In this document: piece after piece, positions 44,296 to 47,726 of the stretch | How positions within the stretch are numbered: the stretch's first letter is position 1 | Layout of the letters: each line of letters begins with the position of its first letter | Assembly (NCBI RefSeq): GCF_002300555.2 | Contig: NZ_NTHN02000010.1 | Span: 62,001 to 126,000, forward strand | DNA: 64,000 nucleotides | Reading direction: 5' to 3' | Source of the DNA: Alloyangia mangrovi | GTDB taxonomy: Bacteria; Pseudomonadota; Alphaproteobacteria; Rhodobacterales; Rhodobacteraceae | The notes under the pieces: model-generated | Told to the model about the DNA's origin: nothing | The model's database searches: none | What the model saw: the letters and a program-made list of their open reading frames with translations, nothing else | Program-made: the position numbers and the translations under genes

Positions 44296-44315
44296 ATGAC
44301 ATCATGACGTCATGA
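44296..44315. promoter_or_regulatory. Tandem ATGAC(A/G)TC repeats before the RHH gene
   Basis: Two tandem eight-base repeats, ATGACATC and ATGACGTC, followed by ATGA, end 18 bases before the RHH start. ATGACGTCAT is itself a perfect palindrome. Ribbon-helix-helix proteins bind such tandem sites, so autoregulation is likely. Confidence 0.45.
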
Positions 44316-44333: not shown

Positions 44334-44531
44334 ATGGCGAAGGTCAAACTGTCCAAGAACAGGGAAGCAGAGGAGGGTGGCGATGAGAAGAAGAACACCT
44401 CCCTCCGGCTCAGTGGTAAGACGCTGAAGGCGCTCAAGATGCGCGCGATCGAAGAGGATACGAGCGTGCAGAAGATCGTCGAGACACTGATCGAGGACTA
44501 CCTCCGCAAGCGCAGAAAGAAGGCACGATGA
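44334..44531 (+). CDS. Ribbon-helix-helix-like DNA-binding protein
   Basis: A 65-residue basic protein. After a charged start, TSLRLSGKTLKALKMRAIEE fits the strand-helix pattern of the MetJ/Arc ribbon-helix-helix fold, followed by a second helix (VQKIVETLIEDYLRKRR). RHH proteins such as ParG and Omega accompany ParA ATPases as partition partners and repressors, and a ParA gene lies two genes downstream. The stop overlaps the CHAD start (ATGA). Assignment by pattern only. Confidence 0.7.
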   Translation: MAKVKLSKNREAEEGGDEKKNTSLRLSGKTLKALKMRAIEEDTSVQKIVETLIEDYLRKRRKKAR

Positions 44532-46049
44532 GCCCCGGGGAGCCGTCACTCTATTTCCTGCCGGAAACGGCGCTGGAACAGCTGATGGAGGCGTCCGCCG
44601 GCGGGCTTGTCCCGCGGTTGGTCTGGCAGGAGGGCAGCAGCCCCTTCCAGGTTCGCGACAGCTTCGATCAGGGACTGCGCGGTTCCGGCAGGTTGCTGAT
44701 CGAGGCGGAAGATCGGGTCGAGCTGCTGCGGCCCGAGGGCGCGCCGCTGGTGCAGCCCGGCACCCCGGGAGGGCGTTTCGTCACCGACCTCCCGGAGGGG
44801 CCGGTGAAGGACGCGCTTTCAGACCTATCGCCGCTGCGCTGCCTGCTGCCGGTGGGCGCGGGCACGTTGCGGCGGGGGACGCTCTCGCTGCTCGATGACG
44901 AGGGCAAGACTCAGGCGCGCGCGCTGCTGTTCGAGCTGGCGGCGACCGAGGGCGGCACGGCGCTGGGGCTGCAGGTGCAGGGGTTGCGTGGCTACGACAA
45001 GGCGCTGCTGCGGCTGCGGGGCATGGTCGAGGATGCGGGGGGGGGCCGCGCTCGGCGACTGCGCACTTTATACAGAGCTCTTCCCGGGGCGGAGCGACTA
45101 CAGCCCCAAGCCGGTGGTGCCGCTGGACCGCGAAACCAGGGCCTTTGACGCGGCGAGCGACATCATCGCCGCCTACCTGCCGGTGGCGCGGGCCAACGAG
45201 GCCGGGGTGATCGCCGATGACGACACCGAGTTCCTGCACGACTACCGCATCGCGCTGCGCAAGATCCGCTCGGTGCTGAGCCTGTTCAGGGATGTCTACG
45301 ATCCAGAGCTGACCGCCGAGCTGAAGGCGCGGTTCTCGGCCCTCATGACATCCACCGGTCGGCTGCGGGATCTCGATGTCTACCTGCTGGAACGGGGTGG
45401 CTTCTACGCCATGGTGCCCGCCAGCCTGCATGGCGGGCTGGACCGGATGTTCGCGCTTTTCGCCGAGGAGCGGACGGAGGAGCACCAATCGCTTGCAGCA
45501 CACCTGCGCAGCGCCGCCTATCGCAAGGAGATCAAGGCGCTTAGCAAGCTCTTCGACAAGCGCAAGAAGCTGGCGCGGGGGGCAAGGGCCGATCTTCCGG
45601 CCTATCCCTTTGCCTGCAAGCTGATCTGGAAACGCTACCGCAGGATCTGCGCCATTGCCGAGGCCATCGACGAGGGCACGCCCGACCACGAGGTCCACGA
45701 GCTGCGCATCCACTGCAAGAAGCTGCGCTACCTCATGGAGTTCTTTGCGCCGCTCTTCCCGGGGAAGCCCTTCAAGCAGATCATCAAACCGCTGAAGAAG
45801 CTGCAGGACAACCTCGGCCTCTTCAACGATTACTCGGTGCAGCAGGAGAGCCTGCAGGCCTTCCTCGGGCGTCTCGAGGGTGCCACGCCGGGCAACCTGC
45901 AAATCGCCCAGAGCGTCGGCGCGCTTGTCCTCGTGCTGCACGAGCGCCAGCTGGCCGAGCGCGCCCGGGTTGTGGGCAGCTTCGCCGCCTTCAACAGCGA
46001 CGAGACCCGCCAGACCTTCCGCGACCTGTTCCACGGGGGAAAAGAATGA
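44528..46049 (+). CDS. CHAD domain protein, frameshifted in a G9 run
   Basis: The C-terminal ~300 residues form a CHAD domain, a histidine-rich helical domain that binds polyphosphate: FLHDYRIALRKIRSVLSLF and EVHELRIHCKKLRYLMEFF carry the paired conserved His/Arg/Lys. The N-terminal ~170 residues resemble a degenerate CYTH fold (inference). The frame breaks in the G9 run 45037-45045; G8 restores a 506-residue protein. Both ends overlap neighbours by ATGA. Likely localises to polyphosphate granules. Confidence 0.87.
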
Positions 46050-46798
46050 AGATCATCGCCTGCTATTCCAACAAGGGTGGCGTGGGGAAGACCGCGACCT
46101 CCGTCAATCTCGCCTATGCGCTTGCGCAGGGCGGGCGGCGGGTGCTGCTCTGCGATCTCGACCCGCAGGGCGCCTCGGGGTTCTATTTCCGGGTGAAGCC
46201 GTCGAAGAAGCTGACCGAGACGCGTTTCTTCGATGACGTGGCGCGTTTCACCAAGGCGATCCGCGGCAGCGATTTCGACAATCTCGACATCCTGCCCGCC
46301 AACATGACCTTCCGCGACTTCGACGTCTTCCTGGCGCGGATGCGCAACTCGCGCTCGCGGCTGAAAAAGGCGCTGAAGGCGGTGAAGGGGGATTACGACG
46401 TGATCCTGCTCGATTGCCCGCCGAACATCTCGACGCTGTCGGAGAATGTCTTTCGTGCCTCCGATGCCATCGTCGTGCCGGTGATCCCCACGACGCTTTC
46501 GCAACGCACCTTCGAGCAGCTCAAGGGGTTCTTCCGCGAGCACGACCTGCCGGCAAAGAAGCTGCACGGCTTCTTTTCCATGGCGCAGGGGGTGAAATCG
46601 TTGCACGGCGAGACGATGGACGAGATGCGCCGCGAGCATGGCAAGCGCCTGCTGAAGGCGTCGATCCCCTTCACATCGGACGTCGAGCGCATGGGGGTGC
46701 ATCGCGCGCCGGTCATGGTCTCGGCGCCCTCGAGCGTCGCAAGCACCGCCTATGTCGCGCTGCATGACGAGCTTGTTGCCCGGGTGTTCGGCAAATGA
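46046..46798 (+). CDS. ParA-family ATPase
   Basis: A 250-residue ParA/MinD-type ATPase with the deviant Walker A KGGVGKT (10-16, with the signature Lys at 10), Walker A' in LLCDLDPQG, and Walker B in VILLDCPP. It lacks an N-terminal HTH, so it is a small ParA like those that position cellular cargo (McdA, ParC-type). It starts inside the CHAD stop and its own stop overlaps the CYTH start. Not the chromosomal parA, which normally pairs with parB. Confidence 0.9.
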   Translation: MKIIACYSNKGGVGKTATSVNLAYALAQGGRRVLLCDLDPQGASGFYFRVKPSKKLTETRFFDDVARFTKAIRGSDFDNLDILPANMTFRDFDVFLARMRNSRSRLKKALKAVKGDYDVILLDCPPNISTLSENVFRASDAIVVPVIPTTLSQRTFEQLKGFFREHDLPAKKLHGFFSMAQGVKSLHGETMDEMRREHGKRLLKASIPFTSDVERMGVHRAPVMVSAPSSVASTAYVALHDELVARVFGK

Positions 46799-47268
46799 GC
46801 GGTGGGGTGGAGATCGAGCGCAAGTTCCTCGTCGCCCGCCTGCCGGTGCTGGAGGGGCTGAAGGCGAAGCCGGTGCGGCAGGGCTATGTGACGCTCAAGG
46901 GCGATTCCATCGAGCTGCGCCTGCGCGAAAAGGGTGGGGCGTATTTCCTGACGCTGAAGTCCGAGGGCGGGCTGGCGCGGATGGAGCGCGAGATCGAGAT
47001 CGATCGCGCCCAGTTCGAGGAACTCTGGCCGGCCACCGGAGGGCGGGTGGTCGAAAAGACCCGCTATGTGGGGGCGCTGGCGGACGGCACGACCTTCGAG
47101 CTCGACGTCTTCGCCGGCGCGTTGGCGCCGCTGGTGATGGTCGAAGTGGAGTTCGATACGGTCGAGGCGGCCTTGGTCTTCATACCGCCGGACTGGTTCG
47201 GCGCGGATGTGACCGAGGATCGCCGCTACAGGAATCGCGCCCTCGCCGACGACGGGGTGCCGCGCTGA
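46795..47268 (+). CDS. CYTH domain protein (inorganic triphosphatase-like)
   Basis: A 157-residue CYTH domain protein with the signature ExExK motif in VEIERKF (Glu6, Glu8, Lys10), followed by the tunnel-forming strands IELRLREKGG, YFLTLKSEG and EREIEID. CYTH proteins hydrolyse triphosphates, including inorganic triphosphate, or cyclise ATP; short standalone forms in bacteria are usually triphosphatases. Genetically coupled to ParA (ATGA) and CHAD, a phosphate-polymer theme. Confidence 0.9.
   Translation: MSGGVEIERKFLVARLPVLEGLKAKPVRQGYVTLKGDSIELRLREKGGAYFLTLKSEGGLARMEREIEIDRAQFEELWPATGGRVVEKTRYVGALADGTTFELDVFAGALAPLVMVEVEFDTVEAALVFIPPDWFGADVTEDRRYRNRALADDGVPR

Positions 47269-47651: not shown

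Positions 47652-47726
<75 letters not shown>

Follow-up and report, generated by a model that had tools for sequence, protein, structure and literature searches.

Four-gene cassette on the plus strand, encoding a ribbon-helix-helix (RHH) protein, a CHAD protein, a small ParA-family ATPase and a CYTH enzyme, located at 44334–47268 of a window of 64,000 nucleotides from Alloyangia mangrovi (assembly GCF_002300555.2, contig NZ_NTHN02000010.1, positions 62,001 to 126,000). The cassette is a real, widespread and conserved unit, found in many genomic settings. Its link to polyphosphate (polyP) is very strong. Sequence and analogy suggest, at a probability of about 0.58, a polyP-granule operon with its own ParA, which would space the granules and share them out at cell division. 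The fuller picture is given even odds: a horizontally mobile, self-contained cassette acting as the first ATP-driven machine for granule positioning and inheritance, with a catalytically dead TTM domain on the CHAD protein as the partner of ParA, possibly sensing a phosphate ligand, and with a self-repressing RHH protein. The features, in window coordinates, are as follows.

44297..44312, plus strand: candidate RHH operator TGACATCATGACGTCA, 21 bp 5' of the RHH start codon.
44334..44531, plus strand: RHH protein, 65 aa, with a lysine-rich disordered N-tail and a predicted ribbon-helix-helix core.
44528..45148, plus strand: CHAD gene part 1, degenerate TTM (CYTH-like) domain; out of frame past the G9 run, stop at 45146–45148.
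45037..45045, plus strand: G9 run, site of the frame change (assembly error or real).
45048..46049, plus strand: CHAD gene part 2, predicted polyP-binding CHAD domain of the long type (Pfam 215 bits; CtCHAD 3e0s/6qv7 at about 5e-52).
46046..46798, plus strand: ParA-family ATPase, 250 aa, with KGGVGKT and CDLDPQG motifs.
46795..47268, plus strand: CYTH/TTM enzyme, 157 aa, with an EIERK motif; close relative of NeuTTM by sequence.

The original prediction, made from the letters of the window, described four genes, each joined to the next by ATGA. The genes and the ATGA overlap at every junction are present, but the CHAD gene (start 44528, stop 46047–46049) is not a single open frame: it is broken within the G9 run. 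The product was named a CHAD protein. It has the CHAD domain, and is actually a TTM-CHAD protein, frameshifted here, whose N-terminal domain (the first 172 codons) had been left unnamed.

Conservation of the four-gene order in other Rhodobacterales had been proposed as a check; it holds for CHAD and ParA and is partial for CYTH and RHH. ParA matches at 1e-30 were obtained in 21 of 295 family genomes, that of the window included; two of them look by eye like chromosomal ParA (34% identity, other neighbours). CHAD precedes ParA in all of the other 18 genomes (one contig cut), CYTH follows ParA in 11, and RHH precedes CHAD in 5. RpoD, DnaG, MurA and HisD of the window occur in none of these 18 stretches (5.6–10.7 kb). 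A scan of named genomes with a CHAD alignment gave 584 relatives, of which the best 80 were taken, several of the 18 family genomes among them. ParA is the next gene after CHAD in 73 of these (cut within ParA in locus L193); same-strand CYTH is present in 56, RHH in 35 and all four genes in 28. The 80 span Rhodobacterales, Brucellaceae, Cohaesibacter, Alcaligenaceae, Nitrosomonas, Colwellia, other gammaproteobacteria and Desulfobulbia; holders include isolates of Ruegeria, Paracoccus and Nitrosomonas europaea. CHAD is present in 202 of 398 phylum genomes. In a comparison set of 40 further CHAD genes, drawn from the phylum search down a ranked list with known linked ones excluded and hence not random, no ParA stands beside CHAD; one weak ParA fragment (1e-7) lies about 1.2 kb off in L254, and L262 gave no match with the CHAD profile of this study. 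Six Paracoccus plasmid records carry CHAD of the cassette type, and in both of those examined it is followed by ATPase and CYTH; the annotation of one Paracoccus plasmid record reads hypothetical-CHAD-AAA ATPase-(hypothetical)-CYTH-NUDIX. Across 51 loci the distances for ParA, CHAD and CYTH are correlated (r 0.82–0.86), as vertical descent alone would also give. Outside the 80-locus set, L240 (G499) represents an intermediate form, having CHAD and then CYTH but no ParA. L270, on Thiodictyon plasmid pTs417, has a related CHAD without ParA near pstS and other solute-binding-protein genes.

CHAD domain matched by Pfam at 1.6e-63, above cut-off. The nearest solved relative is that of Chlorobium tepidum (CtCHAD), for which the complex with polyP has been solved and in which changes at H253, R256, R260, R296, R418 and Y419 lower polyP binding (PMC6537752). 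These residues map by alignment to H64, R67, R71, R107, R227 and Y228 of the window C-part and do not vary in any of 16 aligned sequences (picked from 24); the same six columns, shifted by 173, are invariant in 39 of 39 sequences of a second alignment. The intact protein of Alloyangia pacifica (L133) was modelled from 39 sequences with a mean pLDDT of 92, and the C-part of the model matches the CtCHAD-polyP structure 6qva (TM 0.94 by target). The original prediction made CHAD the cargo adaptor; the predicted binding of its CHAD domain to polyP at the granule surface is supported by homology and by the retention of all six residues shown by mutation to bind polyP.

In intact relatives the protein consists of a degenerate TTM domain joined to CHAD. 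The N-part of the L133 model finds matches among TTM proteins, thiamine triphosphatase included, with a probability of 1.00 (best E 3e-4), at a TM by target of only about 0.4–0.5; ygiF is matched along the full length of the model with poor superposition. No ExExK is found in the first 60 residues of the N-part in any of 79 proteins, so the N-part is probably not an active TTM enzyme. The TTM-CHAD architecture is that of Escherichia coli ygiF and the CHAD phosins; unlike them, the cassette protein has a TTM part without ExExK, is linked to ParA and is often accompanied by a separate CYTH enzyme.

CYTH protein matched by Pfam at 2.5e-7, above cut-off, with EIERK as its ExExK motif. Matches structure 2fbl at 7.8e-58, that of NE1496 (NeuTTM). 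Over 151 residues the CYTH of the Nitrosomonas europaea operon (L151) does not differ from 2fbl, and the ExExK motif is present in 53 of 56 CYTH neighbours. NeuTTM is a specific tripolyphosphatase (PMC3440374), and the window CYTH is, by sequence, its close relative, in line with the triphosphatase-like, polyP-metabolising role originally predicted for it. The cassette supplies a genomic context for this characterised enzyme.

ParA matched by Pfam (AAA_31) at 8.4e-41, above cut-off. The deviant Walker A K10–T16 and the Walker A'/B aspartates D37, D39 and D123 are invariant in 13 of 13 aligned sequences; no shared C-terminal helix like that of MinD was seen by eye. Compared with Alloyangia pacifica, ParA is the most constrained of the genes (dN 0.018, dS 0.293, dN/dS about 0.06). 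Matches in the PDB include 8ray (1e-23, among the better ones) and McdA 6noo (9e-8). ParA-family ATPases are often encoded near the genes of their cargo, and gene neighbourhood is used as a guide to that cargo (PMC10241942). In this the cassette resembles the McdAB system of carboxysome positioning, in which McdA is of the ParA family: a ParA-family ATPase gene stands beside that of a cargo-associated protein. Unlike in McdAB, the cargo would be the polyP granule and the candidate adaptor a TTM-CHAD protein, not the small McdB; other ParA structures, 8ray among them, match better than McdA.

ParA and the TTM domain are read as functionally coupled, from proteins that lack ParA beside them: these have lost otherwise invariant TTM residues and diverge most in the TTM part. 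In a CHAD tree of 79 rows, absence of ParA amounts to six changes, all six forced by well-supported branches; these are read as losses, although the tree is unrooted and gains are possible. Among the 72 ParA-linked proteins, 73 columns are conserved to at least 97%, and 57 of these columns are unchanged throughout the seven ParA-less ones. Only three columns are changed in at least four of the seven, all in the TTM domain: K127 (4/7), R154 (6/7) and Y156 (7/7). Y156 is thus present in 72 of 72 proteins with ParA and in none of the seven without. The seven diverge faster, most of all in the TTM part, where the numbers of the 72 that are as divergent are 0, 0, 0, 1, 1, 4 and 13; for the difference between N- and C-part p is 0.03. 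RHH is found in 0 of 7 ParA-less loci (p 0.016).

RHH protein with Pfam match below cut-off only (Antitox_RHH 4.2e-4). The model, built from 27 sequences, has a disordered start (pLDDT below 50 at residues 1–3 and 5–16) and two helices; no strand was assigned in this monomer. By Foldseek, chains of CopG, CopASO and MatP are matched with a probability of 0.85–0.93, with Arc also among the best matches; the best E is 0.39 and none is at or below 0.001. The palindrome TGACGTCA occurs within 400 bp 5' of CHAD in 29 of 35 RHH loci versus 3 of 44 loci without RHH (Fisher 3e-12; related genomes counted singly, and L147, whose contig starts inside CHAD, left out). Elsewhere in the cassette loci it occurs seven times in 814 kb. 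The runner-up among the 256 eight-base palindromes is found in 3 of the 35 RHH loci. Several RHH loci without the exact site show near matches. The five family loci with RHH also carry TGACGTCA, at least three of those genomes being already among the 80. The site is often doubled as TGACATCATGACGTCA, in the window included; the 5.5 Mb genome of the window has one exact TGACATCATGACGTCA and one place with two mismatches. The association of RHH with this operator is new here. RHH is very probably a DNA-binding autorepressor, as TGACGTCA tracks RHH and the exact operator occurs once in the genome; the repressor role of the original prediction is favoured accordingly by operator and fold model. 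A many-site DNA binder is rejected on the same operator count. A toxin-antitoxin pair is likewise rejected: RHH antitoxin profiles match weakly, and no toxin was found among the four genes by Pfam.

The original prediction also made RHH a possible DNA-binding partner. RHH cannot be the required partner of ParA, because it is optional: it is present in 35 of the 80 loci, and when it was sought in the whole genomes of 19 cassette holders no match was obtained in 13 (one of them 75% complete). RHH may nevertheless touch ParA, because its N-tails are net positive in 25 of 27 aligned sequences and a basic disordered N-terminus is a feature named for ParA partners (PMC10241942).

In the proposed mechanism the CHAD domain would hold its protein on polyP at the granule surface. 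ATP-bound ParA is expected to sit on the nucleoid and would be released on contact with the granule-bound CHAD protein, most probably by way of the degenerate TTM domain. Granules would be kept apart and distributed between daughter cells in the manner of plasmids and carboxysomes. The gene linkage and the coupled loss of ParA and TTM residues are consistent with such positioning. CYTH would clear tripolyphosphate left by polyP turnover, an activity published for the Nitrosomonas europaea member and predicted for the one described here. RHH would repress the operon through the TGACGTCA site, and where RHH is present its basic disordered tail may also stimulate ParA.

Several observations weigh against positioning of granules by this ParA. 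The N-terminus of the CHAD protein is not basic, unlike known ParA partners (35 of 79 positive, median net charge -1). ParA at 1e-45 is found in 68 of 398 phylum genomes, and CHAD adjoins it in 5 of the 60 loci examined (out of 67, the two family genomes set aside); the same ParA type therefore also serves in other contexts. The ParA-less proteins are faster, if less so, in the CHAD part as well (as divergent of the 72: 0, 0, 2, 15, 17, 18 and 29), and ParA-less L161 is not faster than its own tree sisters in either part. The RGY triplet also occurs in background TTM-CHAD proteins without ParA. Among the 40 background CHAD genes, 2 have PPK1 and 4 have PPK2 nearby; PPK2 is near no cassette locus (four queries, two of which, L217 and L220, look sound by eye). 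Holders have PPK1 less often (11/19) than the non-holders compared (23/24), a weak comparison, the 24 having been taken in list order from 276. RGY as a ParA-specific docking motif is rejected, since it is shown near the domain junction by those background proteins. Among the phylum ParA relatives (L073–L132), 27 of 60 stand near a conserved gene resembling truA by eye and 26 near a repeat-rich protein, instead of CHAD.

PPK1 is near the cassette in 5 of 80 loci: it adjoins the cassette in the Desulfobulbia loci L199, L202 and L210, and in the Colwellia loci L170 and L189 it stands a few genes further downstream. PPX is near in two (L170, L189), with a weaker match in L193. Since PPK1 also stands near background CHAD genes, its neighbourhood tells of CHAD in general, and kinase neighbours are rejected as a mark of the cassette (PPK1 5/80 versus 2/40; PPK2 0 versus 4/40). 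PPK2 is present in 19 of 19 holders. The eight holders without a PPK1 match have three or four PPK2 matches each; 1 of the 24 compared non-holders is without PPK1. A same-strand NUDIX gene is downstream in 9 of 80 loci. The small NUDIX protein is a recurrent fifth cassette gene (L170:6167–6544, L199:6261–6668, L033:6241–6645).

Instead of a positioner, ParA could be a regulator or assembly ATPase of polyP metabolism, switching a complex of CHAD, CYTH and polyP kinase by ATP, like BcsQ in cellulose synthesis. This is unlikely, though it explains the gene linkage equally well; orphan ParAs occur in metabolic operons (PMC9178275), and ygiF offers a case of a CHAD domain stimulating the TTM enzyme to which it is attached (PMC6537752). 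The canonical ParA motifs without a MinD-like C-terminal helix, and the position of ParA as the most constrained gene relative to L133, argue against it while leaving room for a regulatory role.

It is improbable that the cassette is a type Ib partition module of a plasmid or island, made of RHH and ParA in the way of ParFG or delta-omega, that acquired polyP genes. The small ParA, the RHH with its basic disordered tail and the repeated upstream site resemble a type Ib par locus; the fold predicted for RHH would match, and the Paracoccus plasmids carry CHAD of the cassette type, with ATPase and CYTH in the two examined. Type Ib ParABS has RHH as a requirement alongside ParA, whereas 13 of 19 CHAD-ParA genomes are without an RHH match and RHH is not found in 45 of 80 loci (one contig-cut), while CHAD-ParA stays. 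The genome of the window has one exact operator, the contigs that carry two of the family copies measure 4.08 and 4.15 Mb, and the constant neighbour of ParA is CHAD.

The reading frame breaks at the longest G/C run of the window, in a draft assembly of 169 contigs. N- and C-part lie in one open frame in 79 of the 80 named relatives, and L147 has the same frame in a contig-cut gene. Compared with Alloyangia pacifica, the piece past the run has dN 0.076 and dS 0.387 (dN/dS about 0.20), which indicates purifying selection; because of this the frameshift is put down to misassembly, to phase switching or to a gene broken recently. That the operon is decaying here, CHAD being a pseudogene and only the relatives functional, is highly improbable: the frameshift itself and the absence of RHH and ParA from other lineages speak for decay, but the low dN/dS values past the frameshift and in ParA, the draft assembly and the nine-G run, a common site of assembly errors or phase switches, speak against it. 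The G9 run could be a phase-variable tract, which is conceivable because a switch-off would hit CHAD and perhaps the translationally coupled ParA.

Granule positioning by ParA, the preferred reading, was not found described in the literature searched (bioRxiv and most subscription journals lay outside that search). The original statement that no such system is described therefore stands for the mechanism; it does not stand for the gene neighbourhood, as parA-CHAD-ppk is already recorded in Acidithiobacillus, with ParA called a plasmid partition protein (PMC10892726) and the operon linked to cAMP signalling, metabolism and cell division (PMC6416229). That cluster, folD-ppk-parA-CHAD, is like the cassette in having parA beside CHAD and PPK1, the likeness being drawn from the published gene description; it differs in having been recorded without a positioning role in the accessible parts of these two papers. 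Even spacing of polyP granules in Pseudomonas aeruginosa involves AlgP (PMC9239181). AlgP is similar in organising polyP granules and dissimilar in being a histone H1-like DNA-binding protein; the word ParA is absent from the accessible text of that paper. A review of 2025 gives the proteins positioning polyP granules in Caulobacter as unidentified, leaves open whether energy is spent on localisation, and has AlgP as the sole polyP entry of its table (PMC13052382, accessible parts). For this question the operon names a concrete ATPase, adaptor and enzyme, and because named isolates of Ruegeria, Paracoccus and Nitrosomonas europaea carry them, it is directly testable. One group of ParA gains a likely cargo, and the cassette hints at active placement and partition of polyP granules in bacteria.

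The sigma-70 promoter scan gave no match at the locus, and terminators are at chance level. A defence system is rejected: RHH, CYTH and the CHAD C-part have no PADLOC match, and ParA matches three families weakly, chiefly over its ATP site. Insertion of an island at a tRNA is also rejected, as tRNA genes were found in 4 of the 60 loci scanned and stand directly behind the cassette only in L133 and L151. A tRNA-Thr(GGT) gene lies 3' of the cassette at 47652–47726 of the window and at L133:7598–7672 in Alloyangia pacifica, a site that seems common to both; downstream of the L151 cassette the gene is tRNA-Arg.

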